A model generated the notes under the pieces. The model saw nothing but the letters and a program-made list of their open reading frames with translations. It was not told where the DNA came from and did no database searches. The translations under genes were made by a program, and so were the position numbers. Source: Tatumella ptyseos ATCC 33301 (lineage in GTDB: Bacteria > Pseudomonadota > Gammaproteobacteria > Enterobacterales > Enterobacteriaceae). Taken from it: DNA of 64,000 bases. Every line of letters begins with the position of its first letter. Positions within the stretch are counted from its first letter, which is position 1. Shown in pieces: positions 43,532-49,130 of this stretch. The stretch spans positions 90,770 to 154,769 of the forward strand of contig NZ_JMPR01000027.1 of assembly GCF_000735525.1 (NCBI RefSeq), in the 5' to 3' direction.

Positions 43532-44263
43532 TTACAGCTTCATCAGCTGGCGGAACGCTTTGACTTTGCTGCGACTGACCGGGATCTGAAACTCCAGCTC
43601 ATGGAGTTTCAGAATATAGGTATTGTTAAACCATGGCTCAATTTCGCGGATCCGGTTCAGGTTCACGCAGAAAGAGCGGTGACAGCGGAAAAACTGACTT
43701 TCCGGAACCCGCTGGCAAAACTCACTGATACTCATCGACATAATAAACTGATCACGGCGGGTATAGACGATGGTCAGCTTCTCATGGGCTTCCGCATAAC
43801 AGATATCGTGGATATCGGTCACGATAATCCGATCGTCCTTCACCAGATTAATGGTCTGCTGGATCTTTTCTGCCGCCCGGGGAACGACGGGGTTTTGCTG
43901 CGCCTGCCAGTTGCTTTCCAGCTTATTCAGCATCGTGACAATACGCGATTCCTGATAGGGCTTCAGAATATAGTCAAAGGCTTCTAATTCGAAGGCTTCT
44001 ACCGCGTGCTCTTTCCAGGCCGTAATAAACACAATCAGCGGACGTACGGCGAACATGCTGATATTTTTTGCCAGCAGCATGCCATCCAGTGACGGGATAT
44101 TAATATCGAGGAAAATCACGTCTGCCTGATGATTTTGCAGATATTTGAGGACATCAACACCGTCGGTAAAGCAGGCCTCAATGCTGATATGGCTGTGATG
44201 CTGTATCATCCAGCTGAGTTCCTGCTGTGCCAGGTACTCATCTTCCACAATAATGGCCTTCAC
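43532..44263 (-). CDS. ypdB: LytTR response regulator YpdB (PyrR)
   Basis: Response regulator of 243 residues: receiver domain with phosphoacceptor Asp53 ('[11 protein letters not shown]') and a C-terminal LytTR DNA-binding domain (about 138-243, '[22 protein letters not shown]' region). Identity with E. coli YpdB is very high over the whole length. In E. coli the YpdA/YpdB pair senses extracellular pyruvate and induces the transporter gene yhjX. The start overlaps the ypdA stop by four bases. A yhjX homologue lies nearby at 47761-48975. Confidence 0.95.
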
Positions 44264-45978
44264 GTAATAGTCTCCGGACTGAATTGTCGTTGGTCGAAAG
44301 CTTTGGGTGGCACGTTTTTTGTTACCGTGAAGGAGATTTCAGTACCAGGGGAGAGCCGCCTGATGCACAGCCCCTCTCCGTACAGCAGCCGGACGCGGTG
44401 ATGAACATTTAACAGCCCTATCTTATTGCCGGGCATTTCATTACCGGCCACGCGGCGGATAACGTCTTCGCTGATCCCTTCACCGGTATCGCGTACCGAA
44501 ATAGAGACATCCCCGTCGGTGTCTGTCCTTCTGACACTGATGGTCACCACACCTTTTCCCTGACTTCGTTGTATGCCGTGCACAATGGCATTTTCCACTA
44601 ACGGCTGGATCAACAGGCTGGGAATTTTGCAGGCAATATCTTCATCAATATCGTAAATCACCGAGAGTTTGTCGCCAAAACGCGCCTGTTCGATGGCAAT
44701 ATAATCCATAACCTGGTAGAGCTCTTTTTTGATATCTATGGGTTCGTCATCACTCAGTTCCAGGTTATAGCGCAGGTAGCGGGAAAGGTTGATCACCAGC
44801 TGTCGTGCGGTATCCGGGTTCATCCGGATAGAAGACGAAATAGCGTTCAGAGCATTAAACAGGAAGTGCGGGTTAATTTTACTCTGCAGCGCACGGAGTT
44901 CGGCTTTATTCGCCATTTCCCGTAACTGCTCTGCACGGGATACCTCCAACTGGGTCGATATGATTTGTGACAAACCGACAGCCATTTCTTTCAGAGAGCC
45001 GGTTATTTTATGTGCCCGGCGATAATAGATTTTTAATGTCCCGGCGACGGCGCCTTTTTCCCGCAACGGGATCACCAGGATAGAGTGGATATCCCGGGTA
45101 CGATAGGCTTCATCATTATTGCGGATAATGATTTTACCACTGGTAATGGCCAGGGTAGTGGTCGGGCTCAGACTGATATTCCCTGTCTGATAGTGCTCCT
45201 CTCCGTAACCGACATAAGCCAGAATTTCCTGGCAATTGGTCAGGGCAACGGCATCTGCGTTGATATCATGGCGGATTATTTCACATACCTGACGTAACGA
45301 CTCGCTGTTCACATGGCGGAACAGGGGTAACGTTTTGTTGGCAATATCGAGAGCCAGTTTGGCCTGCCGGGCGGCCTGTGCCTCTTTTTCACCCTCCACG
45401 CTTTGCACCAGCAGGACAATCAGACCGATACTCATCGACCCGAGGATCATCGGCAGTGCAATTTCACTGACTATTTCAATGCCCAGTGCGGCAGGACGGG
45501 CAAAGAGAACAATCAGCAGCATGGTCAGGGATTCACATAACATACCGCAGAGGATCCCGGCACTCCAGCGCCGGGATTTCCCGACATGCTGGTAAATCAT
45601 TCCTGAGATCACACCCGCCAGAATACTGGTGATCAGACAGGGAACGGAGCTGACCCCGTGGATATCAATCAGGTAGCGATGCAGCCCGGCAATCACACCG
45701 GTAGAAATGCCCACCCAGGGACCAAACAGGATCCCGCCGGACATGACGGCTATGATACGGACGTTCAGTAAGGAGCCATCCACATTAATGCCGGTCCAGG
45801 TACTGAACAGCGCAAATAACGAAAAAATGAGGATGACGGCCAGCTTTTCTGCCGGCGTATAGTCATCTTTTTGCAGTAACTGACGGAACGGGGCGGCCCG
45901 TGTCAGAAAAAACAGGCAAATCAGCATCAGGGCAGCCCGATCAAAAACTGCCAGTAGTTTATCAAAGTGCAGGAACAT
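44260..45978 (-). CDS. ypdA: LytS-type sensor histidine kinase YpdA (PyrS)
   Basis: Membrane sensor kinase of 572 residues from the ATG at 45978, which has AAGG nine bases upstream; an in-frame ATG 69 bases earlier would add residues not seen in homologues. The N-terminus is a 5TMR-LYT membrane module ('[19 protein letters not shown]', '[15 protein letters not shown]'), followed by a GAF domain and a LytS-type kinase core with '[17 protein letters not shown]' (phosphoacceptor His near residue 370) and an ATPase domain ('[11 protein letters not shown]', 'RDTGEGI'). It is the high-affinity pyruvate sensor in E. coli. Confidence 0.95.
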
Positions 45979-46404
45979 CGTGGCAGGCCTTAGATCAGAT
46001 TGCGACAGGGATTGCGGCGTATGATAGAAAAAACTCACCTTGTGCACCAGTGCCGGGTCCGGTTATTCCACCGGAAAAGGTATTCTGATCAATTTTTCGT
46101 GGCCGACAGGCCAGCGGTGCCGGGAAATAGCTGGTTACCTCACCACATCAAATCTTGCAGGATTGAAAATATATTAAAAGCCAATTTCTGTCGCTACGTC
46201 TTCCTTTTACACTTCAGGGAGTATGAAAAGGTGGGCTGAGTCCTTTTTTATAGCGGATTGCATCAATGCTCTGACAAATATAGAGAATAAGGCTACAGTA
46301 GTTGCTCGTTAAACTGTGTTACCTGCAGCAGGCAGTCCTGTTTTCTGTGAAACATGCGACGTCAGAGCGGGTGACAGCCTTTCACTGGAAGTGAGCTTGA
46401 TAGA

Positions 46405-46875
46405 ATGAAAACACTGTTGATGGCGATTGATCGTCAGGCCACCATGGCAGAAAAAGTGATTAACGTGACTCTGGAACAGGCCAAAGCGCATCAGGCGTCG
46501 GTCATTATTTTATGTTGTGTGGCGCCGGATGATGCCGCCTGCAGTCAGCCGATGGAAATTGATACCGCAGAAAAAAATGCGCTTTCAATGGATGCGCTGG
46601 ACTCCCGGAATTCTGCCGAACAGATAGTTCGCTATGCGCTGAATCCGTTTGCAGAGGCCGGTATTCCTGCCCGCGGGATGATTTGCTGCGGTGACCCGGC
46701 GACGACGATCGTTGACCAGGCTGACCGGCTTAATGTGTCGATGATTATCATGGGACGGCGCCATCTCTCTGCCTTCAATCGTATTCTGAAAAGTTCAGTC
46801 AGCGCGGCGGTCCTGGAAAGAGCTCACTGTCCCGTATTAGTCGATGTATCCAGAGAGACTTCGTCTTCAGTATGA
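46405..46875 (+). CDS. UspA-family universal stress protein
   Basis: Cytoplasmic Usp-domain protein of 156 residues: alternating beta/alpha pattern starting 'KTLLMAIDRQATMAEKVINVTL' region and ending 'AAVLERAHCPVLVDV'. The usual ATP-binding signature G-2x-G-9x-G-(S/T) is broken: after 'IIMGRRHLSAFNRILKSS' only the first glycine is present, so it may be a non-ATP-binding UspA type. It overlaps the next gene by four bases (ATGA), so the two are an operon. It is not one of the named E. coli Usp proteins that I can identify. Confidence 0.8.
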   Translation: MKTLLMAIDRQATMAEKVINVTLEQAKAHQASVIILCCVAPDDAACSQPMEIDTAEKNALSMDALDSRNSAEQIVRYALNPFAEAGIPARGMICCGDPATTIVDQADRLNVSMIIMGRRHLSAFNRILKSSVSAAVLERAHCPVLVDVSRETSSSV

Positions 46876-47675
46876 CCGATACCCTTATCCCTTCAATTTC
46901 CGGCCTGGTTATTTTGGGGCTTTTCTGGACACTGGTTGTCAGGAAGAGCCGGTTATCGCTGGCCGGTGGTATTCTTCTGACGGTGCTCCCGGTCATTGCC
47001 GGAAACCTCTATTGGTTTTATGCCTGTAAGCCTGAACTGGATGTACAAAAACAGGAACAACGTGCGCTGGCTCAAATTTCCTCACTGCCAGGTTACCGGG
47101 TACTGAAAATTCAGGAGCCCGGACTCTGGCGAATGCTACAACAGGCTTTTTTGCGGTCGGTTCGCGAGGGTAACAGTGTTCCTGTCGCCCTGGGACAGTT
47201 GCGCGGTATGCTGGTGGATGTCATCAATCAGCGTATCGGCCGGGCCAGTGATGATGCGGTGATCCATTATGTCTCGATGTCAGTGGATGAAATGAAAACG
47301 CTGGATAAAATCTCGTCCGATGCCTGTTTTCGTTTCCTGTATCCCCAGGTCGAGGGCGGAGTTAATCTTATGCAATTGCTTCCGCCAGCGCTGAATACGG
47401 AGGATGCAGAAGCGATGGAAACGCTGCTGCTGACCAGTCAGGGCCCGGATAAGCCTCTGGATAAAACGCTGGCGACTGAAACCCTGAAAGAAGTGGTCAG
47501 CACGTTATATCCGCGCTGGGGTGACCAGCTCAGACAACTGAACGAACCCGGAGATACCTCCCCGAACCATCAGGCGCTCTGTGATATGACGATCGATTTC
47601 TATCAGACGATCCTTAGCTTACCGCCGGCTCAGTCGGTGAATTTGTTACGAATGATGGTGCTGAGTGCTGAATAA
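46872..47675 (+). CDS. Unrecognised protein with two N-terminal membrane helices
   Basis: Protein of 267 residues, not recognised. It starts with two hydrophobic segments (about 8-23 and 29-50, 'VILGLFWTLVVRK' and 'GGILLTVLPVIAGNLYWFY') separated by a short basic loop, then a soluble domain of about 215 residues that is mostly predicted helical, with 'GRASDDAVIHYVSMSVDEMKTL' (about 119-140) and three or four cysteines. The four-base overlap with the upstream usp gene indicates joint translation. The reading frame is intact and has normal codon use. A role alongside the Usp protein, perhaps at the membrane, is inference. Confidence 0.85.
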   Translation: MTDTLIPSISGLVILGLFWTLVVRKSRLSLAGGILLTVLPVIAGNLYWFYACKPELDVQKQEQRALAQISSLPGYRVLKIQEPGLWRMLQQAFLRSVREGNSVPVALGQLRGMLVDVINQRIGRASDDAVIHYVSMSVDEMKTLDKISSDACFRFLYPQVEGGVNLMQLLPPALNTEDAEAMETLLLTSQGPDKPLDKTLATETLKEVVSTLYPRWGDQLRQLNEPGDTSPNHQALCDMTIDFYQTILSLPPAQSVNLLRMMVLSAE

Positions 47676-47716
47676 CCTGCGTTCATACGGCAGCAGGTCA
47701 CCGGGGAAATACGTTT

Positions 47717-47736
47717 GCCTGCTCCGGTGAGCAGGC
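47717..47736 (+). terminator. Hairpin between the convergent 46872-47675 gene and yhjX
   Basis: GCCTGCTC-CGGT-GAGCAGGC, an 8-bp stem with a 4-base loop, sits between two convergent genes. It has no long T-run on either side, so it is only a possible weak bidirectional terminator. Confidence 0.45.
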
Positions 47737-47760
47737 AGGGGAACCGCGGGATGCCCTCAG

Positions 47761-48975
47761 TCAGGAATTCAGCACCGGGGCGGTGGCGGTAAAACGTGCG
47801 CCAGGCGGGCGAATGGTCAGAGAGAGAGCCAGTGATGCTATCAGCAGAACCATAATCAGGGTAAAAGTCACGGTAAAGCCACCGGACAACGAGGCGACCA
47901 GCGACCCGAGGATACTGCCAATACCGAAGCCCAGATAAATTACGCCATAATTTTTAGTCAGATTATTCAGCCCAAAAAAATCACTGACCAGAGAGGGGAA
48001 AACGGTAATGGTTCCGCCGAAGCTGAACGCGATACTGGCCACAGCGATAAAGAACGTCGTTTCATTCAGTGAACTAAACATCAGCAGGCTCATCCCTGCC
48101 AGGGAAATCACCTGCGCCAGCGAGATGACGCGAATACGGGGCAGTTTATCGGATAATACTCCCAGCACCAGGCGTCCGCTCAGGTTGGCTATTGCTATTA
48201 CCGTTACTGCGTTGGCTGCACTTAGCGCAGGCAGGTGGACCATGCTTTGGCCGATATCTTTCGCCACGCCAATCACATATAACCCGCTCATACAGGCGGT
48301 AAGAAACATCAGTGCCAGCATCCAGTATTGCGGTTGTTTCATTGATTCAGCCAGTGAAAAATCATAGCCGGAAGCCACGCCGGGCTGTGACCCTCTGCGC
48401 GGAGCATCTTTCATCAGTGATGCACCCATAGCCACCATCACCAGTGCAATACATCCCCACAGCATAAACGTGCGTTCAAGCCCCTGATGGATCAGCAGGT
48501 AGCTGCAGATAAACTTAAAGCCCAGACTGCCCAGACCGTATGCCCCGATGGCACAGGCAGAAATCACCCCTTTACGTTCCGGAAACCATTTTACACAGTT
48601 AGATAATGTCATCAGATAACCGGCCCCATCGGCCAGTCCGACCAGTACCCCGGCACTGAGATACAGCATCGGCAGTGATGAGGCTGCAGAGGTCAGGAAA
48701 AAACCGATAGCCAGTAACCCTCCGGCACCAAGGGTAACCTTCCTGACTCCGAACCGCTCCTGCAGTTTACCGGCCAGAGAAGAGGCAATCGCCAGTCCGA
48801 GACTGAGTAAGCCGAAAGAAAGTGCAACTTTGCTGACGGGGGCTGAGAGTTTTTCTGACAGGGGCTGATTAAACAGACTCCAGGTATAGACAGAGCCCAG
48901 GGCAAACTGCGTAATAATGGTGCCGGCCAGGGTCAGCCAGCGGGTCAGGGGGGAAAAGGGTGATTCTGTATTCAT
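47761..48975 (-). CDS. yhjX: YhjX-type MFS transporter (pyruvate-induced)
   Basis: Major facilitator protein of 404 residues from the ATG at 48975 (GGAG six bases upstream); longer in-frame starts exist but homologues begin here. About 12 helices of the OFA (oxalate/formate antiporter-like) group. Blocks nearly identical to E. coli YhjX: 'IITQFALGSVYTWSLFNQ', 'GVLVGLADGAGYL', 'LSNCVKWFPERKGVISA' and 'FPSLVSDFFGLNNLTKNYGVI'. In E. coli YhjX is a pyruvate transporter induced by YpdAB. Here it lies 1.8 kb from ypdA, with the usp pair between. Confidence 0.92.
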   Translation of the reverse strand: MNTESPFSPLTRWLTLAGTIITQFALGSVYTWSLFNQPLSEKLSAPVSKVALSFGLLSLGLAIASSLAGKLQERFGVRKVTLGAGGLLAIGFFLTSAASSLPMLYLSAGVLVGLADGAGYLMTLSNCVKWFPERKGVISACAIGAYGLGSLGFKFICSYLLIHQGLERTFMLWGCIALVMVAMGASLMKDAPRRGSQPGVASGYDFSLAESMKQPQYWMLALMFLTACMSGLYVIGVAKDIGQSMVHLPALSAANAVTVIAIANLSGRLVLGVLSDKLPRIRVISLAQVISLAGMSLLMFSSLNETTFFIAVASIAFSFGGTITVFPSLVSDFFGLNNLTKNYGVIYLGFGIGSILGSLVASLSGGFTVTFTLIMVLLIASLALSLTIRPPGARFTATAPVLNS

Positions 48976-49047
48976 ATCATGCTCCGCATGCGAGTGTTCT
49001 GCTGCAGTGAGCATAATGAATGCCTGCTTTCTTGTGTGGGTAATGGC

Positions 49048-49078
49048 ATGAAGTGCAGTTTTCAGGGAATGAATGACA
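49048..49078 (-). promoter_or_regulatory. YpdB-site-like direct repeat upstream of yhjX
   Basis: On the minus strand TGTCATTCAT-N11-TGCACTTCAT lies 73-103 bases before the yhjX start. The reported E. coli YpdB motif at yhjX is GGCATTTCAT-N11-GGCATTTCAT; the two repeats match it at 6 and 8 of 10 positions, share the TTCAT core, and have exactly the 21-base period. A third partial copy, GGCATTCAT, is at 49024-49016. Confidence 0.55.
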
Positions 49079-49130
49079 TTGTTCGGGGAATAAACGGAAG
49101 CACTGGCGACAACCGGCCGCCAGCAGGTTC

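Follow-up and report, generated by a model that had tools for sequence, protein, structure and literature searches.

A YpdA/YpdB pyruvate-sensing locus in Tatumella ptyseos with its probable target yhjX close by, a candidate operator of three repeats and a spacing that points to gene loss

Do the sensor, the regulator and the target of the YpdA/YpdB (PyrS/PyrR) pyruvate-sensing system form one local unit in Tatumella, and how did they come to lie together? The question is raised by a stretch of 64,000 nucleotides from Tatumella ptyseos ATCC 33301 (contig NZ_JMPR01000027.1, positions 90,770 to 154,769; hereafter the window; the genome comprises 3.53 Mb in 88 contigs). Here the genes that follow glk are, in order, ypdB, ypdA, usp (universal stress protein), a gene for a 267-amino-acid (aa) membrane protein and yhjX, and then genes for an EamA transporter and an AraC-type regulator. 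We consider it very likely that this locus encodes the YpdA/YpdB system together with yhjX as its probable single target, that an array of three operator repeats precedes yhjX, that the usp pair is a bystander and that the present spacing arose by gene loss.

The genes named in the first-pass annotation (ypdB-ypdA, a usp pair and a YhjX-type transporter) were borne out by protein domains and by 72-76% identity to the proteins of E. coli K-12, our reference for YpdA, YpdB and YhjX. The reading frames of ypdA and ypdB overlap by 4 bases, and YpdB combines a receiver, whose phosphorylatable Asp53 is invariant in 6 aligned sequences, with a LytTR domain. By identity (76% to E. coli YpdA) the kinase is of the YpdA type and not of the BtsS type, and BtsR is encoded at a separate locus of the same genome. 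The window's YhjX is an ortholog and not a paralogue, as it falls within the Enterobacteriaceae YhjX clade with support of 99/99. All three reading frames are open over their full length, and sensor, regulator and target are neighbours in all six genomes of the genus Tatumella.

Upstream of yhjX we detected three in-phase direct repeats with a step of 21 bp (49099-49045, minus strand), which we claim as an orthologous, diverged candidate operator of YpdB. A scan for the exact E. coli consensus pair (GGCATTTCAT-N11-GGCATTTCAT, up to 3 mismatches) gave no match in the window, and therefore a matrix for the three-repeat array was derived from relatives, trained on 23 non-Tatumella yhjX promoters of our own choosing, mostly one per genus. 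Triples were anchored on the whole array because, with the best pair alone as anchor, JGM91, P. ananatis, P. agglomerans and Mixta (4 of the 29 rows) were set one repeat off. The window array scored 32.8 on this matrix, compared with a mean of -13.8 and a maximum of 14.1 for the best scores of 200 first-order random 64-kb windows. The pair TGTCATTCAT-N11-TGCACTTCAT with its 21-base period, which had been proposed from the letters, is thereby confirmed at 49078-49048 (minus strand) far above chance; as a two-repeat motif it was incomplete, since a third repeat, TTCCGTTTAT, lies one 21-bp step upstream. The pair agrees with the E. coli consensus pair in 14 of 20 letters. No -35 match and no consensus promoter were found at the yhjX promoter.

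The same architecture is found in relatives, which share a repeat unit of about 13 bp (nGnnnTTCATnCC). In all 80 named yhjX loci, which are the best 80 among 334 relatives, the top match of the matrix lies upstream of yhjX when whole loci are scanned on both strands (22 of them are training rows). This is also the case in E. coli K-12, itself a training row, and in 15/16 further family loci; in the exception a contig end truncates yhjX. Within the 320 bp ahead of the YhjX match, the best triple with 21-bp steps agrees in 20 to 27 of 30 letters across the 80 loci. In 29 chosen promoters, six of them from Tatumella, mean information per position is 1.37, 1.59 and 1.35 bits for repeats 1, 2 and 3, respectively, 0.51 and 0.61 bits for the first and second spacer and 0.06 bits for the 40 bp upstream of the array. 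The best TATAAT-like hexamer, sought 24-45 nt downstream with ties broken towards 33, begins 31-33 nt after repeat 3 in 29/29 of these promoters, agreeing with TATAAT at 4-5 of the 6 letters in all but one, where 3 agree.

The original E. coli footprint is reportedly Fried 2013. Does the operator consist of two sites or three? We lean, with some reserve, towards three in-phase sites in at least four families (f1, the window's family, which we take to be Enterobacteriaceae; f2; f12; and part of f6), on which YpdB would sit as a cooperative row of three monomers. In this proposal the first repeat would be built into the end of ypdB in f2 and f12, and one Enterobacteriaceae branch would have a transporter of another subfamily under a kept sensor, regulator and operator. 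Repeat 1 has the core GnnnTTCATnCC and the 21-bp step in common with the other repeats, and its information matches that of repeat 3. With a first step of 20 bp it recurs in the three other families by a 21-bp-anchored scan: its core is complete (6/6) in five of six f2 rows, in two of four f12 rows (5/6 in a third) and in both f6 rows with yhjX on the opposite strand. In f2 and f12, where yhjX directly follows ypdB, the ypdB stop codon (TAA) falls within the first repeat (L099, L105, L106 and relatives). Moreover, the E. coli oligonucleotide used for surface plasmon resonance (SPR), after its clamp, starts with CGCGTCATTCATTCC and so contains repeat 1, and PMC4847170 describes this fragment as resembling all DNase I-protected bases.

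Several observations weigh against the third site. In its available text PMC4847170 names two sites only, A and B, and reports that two binding events, A before B, fit the SPR data and that mutation of site A abolished binding; because the A mutant bound nothing with repeat 1 intact, repeat 1 cannot be strongly bound on its own. In ten rows that we label Aeromonas-like by inference (nine from f25 and one from f6) the 21-bp-anchored scan shows only two clear repeats, and in two rows of f10 it shows none. The SPR results and the ten Aeromonas-like rows fit an operator in which YpdB occupies repeats 2 and 3 (A and B) alone, with repeat 1 serving as a conserved contact in the flank or as the site of another protein, an alternative that we regard as unlikely in view of the shared core, the matching information, the recurrence in three families and the extent of the SPR fragment. 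Repeat 1 is possibly a cooperative third site, whose occupancy by YpdB we infer. The literature searched, of which text only was covered, yielded no mention of a third YpdB repeat; a figure, e.g., Fig 3B of PMC5552118, could show one. If YpdB does work as a row of three monomers, the AB-BA model published for the pulsed expression of yhjX would be altered.

Six f1 genomes (L091-L096) show what the operator may govern elsewhere. Adjacent to the 3' end of ypdB they encode a transporter that is 42-50% identical to the 14 true YhjX proteins compared; YhjX of the named non-Tatumella loci is 71-79% identical to that of the window, and YhjX of the Aeromonas-like genomes 73-75%. The six divergent transporters form a separate clade in a 56-row tree (support 100/100) and also in a smaller tree to which the f3 rows were added. 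In the two of them that were scanned, the L-lactate transporter model scores above the oxalate/formate model, and the reverse holds for YhjX of the window, of E. coli and of an Aeromonas-like genome. YpdB of these genomes is 70-71% identical to that of the window, and their promoters hold the array with matrix scores of 39-54, repeat 1 overlapping the last ypdB codons in four of the six loci (genera g8 and g15). By sequence, switch and operator agree while the transporter differs in these six genomes; the transporter may have been exchanged in place.

How many targets does the regulator have? In the 3.53-Mb genome, a pattern written partly from the window sequence itself matches only the yhjX promoter at up to 3 mismatches, a lone operator place that agrees with yhjX as the single target. 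An A-B pattern was run at 2 mismatches on 394 genomes of the order. It matches 25 of the 27 f1 genomes with ypdB and none of the seven without it; of these 25, 24 have a match at yhjX, and G112, in which yhjX is cut by a contig end, is matched on another contig. One extra weak match occurs in G351, and ten genomes of other families are matched, at yhjX in G253 only; the reversed pattern, used as a control, matches 0/394. With the matrix, none of 16 unlinked ypdAB loci gave a score above -12, and more than 400 bp from yhjX only 11 matches exceeded -12 in 90 loci, all within the simulated range. The best two of these scores, 11.4 (L111) and 0.4 (window, 40371), lie inside nupC and the others are -5.5 or lower. 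Weak array-like matches occupy a similar place in nupC in three Tatumella loci (window 40371, L111 at 1057 and L109 at 2928, the last scoring -10.9), again within the simulated range.

The usp gene and its partner lie between ypdA and yhjX, and the first-pass annotation had suggested that they may belong to the module. Such an enlarged pyruvate module, in which ypdAB, usp, the membrane protein gene and yhjX are co-regulated and Usp, for instance, tunes the transporter, is quite improbable in our judgement. Among the 80 named loci, usp, the membrane protein gene and ypdA lie within 10 kb of yhjX in 27, with the pair between yhjX and ypdA, and a further 11 have the pair close to yhjX but show no ypdA in the flank (other partial sets, 6; none, 36); the pair is also kept in 6/6 genomes of the genus. 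These associations would favour co-regulation, but in the 90 loci checked the surroundings of the usp pair gave no array-like site that exceeded simulated chance. The lone weak match between usp and ypdA (L197, -10.9) is inside alaC and at noise level. The pair is part of a gene block common to Pantoea and Erwinia, and the block holds unrelated genes (in L194 GNAT, alaC, HlyD, a major facilitator superfamily (MFS) exporter and an IclR-type regulator). In addition, usp occurs without its partner in four named loci, the partner without usp in L164 and neither in L157, and distant homologues of the partner occur elsewhere without a Usp match (16 loci). As far as this comparative evidence goes, the pair appears to be a bystander, and the suggestion was not upheld. 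The 267-aa protein itself has no Pfam or NCBIfam match, nor do four distant homologues above the cut-off, and matches at E <= 1e-5 were found in 19 of 394 genomes of the order. Two cysteines are invariant in 15 aligned homologues. In two loci the distant homologues lie between what we take to be a GNAT gene and a miaE-like gene.

The interpretation of the window as a functional YpdB-yhjX system has to accommodate some contrary points. Repeat 1 (TTCCGTTTAT) is the weakest of the window's three, repeat 2 (TGTCATTCAT) differs from the GGCATTTCAT bound in E. coli, and of all family arrays scanned the window's has the lowest score, 32.8 against 35.8-74.3 in the 77 named loci outside Tatumella. The order-wide A-B pattern misses the window's genome (G000) and G238. 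Furthermore, the role of YhjX as a pyruvate transporter rests on mutants, PMC7730263 reporting no pyruvate uptake in an E. coli btsT cstA yhjX triple mutant. One could suppose from the low score that yhjX is under other control here and that the repeats are a decaying relic. We hold this to be very improbable: in repeats 2 and 3 the core TTCATnCC, the step of 21 bp and the distance to the -10 box are retained, the three frames are open, and a sister genome with the same layout (G398) has an array score of 39.1.

The order of the genes was compared in the draw of 394 genomes, with matches counted at E <= 1e-60. A YhjX-like match was found in 69 genomes, YpdB in 60 and both in 59; the single genome with YpdB alone is 79% complete, and the ten with a YhjX-like match alone all belong to family f3 (44-48% identity). 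Outside f1, all 32 genomes that have both (five other families) place yhjX at the 3' side of ypdB, at a distance of 67-190 bp, on the same strand in 28 and on the opposite strand in 4. Within f1 (27 genomes), the adjacent gene is at the 3' side of ypdB in 6 (195-746 bp), yhjX lies 3.5 to 12.7 kb off on the 5' side of ypdA in 5 (the window and Pantoea-like genomes), and ypdB and yhjX are more than 1 Mb apart in 9 and on different contigs in 7. In the window the distance from ypdB to yhjX is 3.5 kb, and ypdA stands between the two with its 5' side towards yhjX. Because the other families place yhjX at the 3' side of ypdB, the window order is not ancestral; the comparison suggests that the ancestral state was yhjX directly behind ypdB, which is not seen in the window. 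A quick YpdB tree had long branches and was relied on only loosely.

What fills the gap in relatives bears on the compact layout. The gene alaC, which adjoins ypdA in E. coli too, is found in the interval from ypdA to yhjX in 28 of the 30 named loci showing ypdA, the exceptions being Tatumella sp. JGM91 and T. saanichensis, and AlaC above 70% identity was found in 40 of the 80 named loci. In L194 (labelled Enterobacter ludwigii EnVs2, with the gene order of Pantoea loci) the gap between ypdA and usp is filled by the GNAT acetyltransferase, alaC (its product 90% identical to E. coli AlaC), HlyD, MFS exporter and IclR-type regulator genes mentioned above. Tatumella G394 and G395 retain alaC (91% identity in G394), and four of six genus genomes, the window's included (G000, G396, G397 and G398), have no AlaC match at E <= 1e-60. 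Given these gap contents, the short distance between ypdA and yhjX in the window is most simply explained as derived, alaC and further genes having been lost in the Tatumella line. The genus genomes without an AlaC match measure 3.3-3.7 Mb and the two that keep alaC 4.4-4.5 Mb. That the window order is instead ancestral, kept in Tatumella and lost in E. coli, is the least probable of the alternatives, since the linkage on the 5' side of ypdA common to Tatumella and Pantoea-like genomes and the single clade of Enterobacteriaceae YhjX, which would favour it, are set against the 3' position of yhjX in 32/32 genomes of five other families and against the alaC that separates ypdA from yhjX in most named loci showing ypdA (28 of 30) and in two genus genomes. 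The neighbourhood comparison that the first-pass annotation had named thus disfavours its "possibly the ancestral arrangement" and makes gene loss the simplest explanation of the compactness.

The features of the locus are collected in Table 1. The yhjX start is most likely at 48975, because GGAG lies six bases ahead and the alternative upstream in-frame ATG overlaps the -10 box. A terminator-like hairpin (49125-49101, minus strand) lies between the EamA gene and the operator and might insulate yhjX from the upstream gene.

Table 1. Features of the ypdAB-yhjX locus, in positions of the window
Feature	Position	Strand	Basis or remark
ypdB (pyrR), LytTR response regulator, 243 aa	43532..44263	-	Pfam Response_reg + LytTR; 72% identity to E. 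coli YpdB
ypdA (pyrS), LytS-type histidine kinase, 572 aa	44260..45978	-	Pfam 5TM-5TMR_LYT, GAF, His_kinase, HATPase_c; 76% identity to E. coli YpdA
Site of lost alaC	46048-46404		
usp, universal stress protein, 156 aa	46405..46875	+	Pfam Usp
267-aa predicted membrane protein, unnamed family	46872..47675	+	Start overlaps usp stop
yhjX, MFS transporter, oxalate/formate-lactate type, 404 aa, predicted YpdB target	47761..48975	-	73% identity to E. coli YhjX
Shine-Dalgarno GGAG, 6 nt 5' of ATG at 48975	48982..48985	-	Sequence
-10 box TATGCT, 32 nt after last repeat	49010..49015	-	Best TATAAT-like hexamer, conserved spacing
Operator repeat 3 (published B-site position), TGCACTTCAT, then GCC	49048..49057	-	Matrix and pattern scans
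Operator repeat 2 (published A-site position), TGTCATTCAT	49069..49078	-	Matrix and pattern scans
Operator repeat 1, TTCCGTTTAT	49090..49099	-	21-bp register; block conserved in relatives

Direct support exists for the genes and their neighbourhoods, for the promoter geometry and for the three-repeat array, which is conserved and, in the scans made, restricted to yhjX. By analogy with E. coli, YpdA would sense outside pyruvate and pass phosphate to YpdB, whose monomers would bind the three direct repeats on one face of the DNA, the 21-bp spacing being two helical turns. With the repeats ending 32 nt ahead of the -10 box of a promoter that has no -35 element, YpdB would recruit RNA polymerase and switch yhjX on, and YhjX would move pyruvate or a related monocarboxylate.

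The E. coli system resembles that of the window in its proteins (72-76% identical), in a 21-bp direct-repeat operator found only at yhjX and in the position of ypdAB on the glk-mntH-nupC stretch of the chromosome. K-12 differs in that about 1.2 Mb separate yhjX, flanked there by eptB and yhjY, from ypdB, whereas the distance is 3.5 kb in the window; alaC, absent in the window, stands beside ypdA; and the window's repeat 2 deviates from GGCATTTCAT. The related pair BtsS/BtsR with BtsT is likewise a LytS/LytTR system for pyruvate but has, according to the literature, another operator and a transporter of another family. The BtsS/BtsR pair is also encoded in the window's genome (L003, G000:C4, at about 77.6 kb; BtsR model 353.8 bits versus a cut-off of 246) and adjoins a CstA-like gene, part of which is in the locus, so that both pyruvate systems sit beside a transporter gene. 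The LytTR regulators CoxC and RcoM regulate carbon monoxide oxidation genes outside two-component systems, CoxC as a repressor. YpdB differs from them as a two-component activator with a different consensus. Their operators, like that of the window, have three direct repeats spaced by about two helical turns (PMC11347149).

A local ypdAB-yhjX module is of a known kind that is already in print. In Table 1 of PMC5552118, Yersinia enterocolitica and Aeromonas hydrophila are marked as having target genes beside ypdAB, and the locus tags given for ypdAB and the target in Serratia are nearly adjacent. Regulator and target transporter are thus neighbours in all of these, as in the window, but there, by locus tags, the target follows directly or nearly so, whereas the window has it on the far side of ypdA, with usp and the membrane protein gene in between. 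For Serratia marcescens and Aeromonas hydrophila the same paper reports no recognisable YpdB motif. Of the proposed local module, the adjacency, seen throughout the genus, and the operator at yhjX alone therefore stand, and the implied novelty does not. The literature searched gave nothing relevant on ypdAB in Tatumella or Pantoea, nor on LytS combined with pyruvate and synteny.

The locus is therefore a further case of a known arrangement, and it corrects the idea that its gene order is ancestral. It provides a clean operator model, with three repeats spaced by 21 bp, a fixed distance to the -10 box and one place in nearly every genome scanned, and the comparison makes a published binding model of one LytTR regulator directly testable in E. 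coli K-12. The six Enterobacteriaceae genomes with the divergent transporter offer a natural experiment, a differing transporter under a conserved pyruvate switch.

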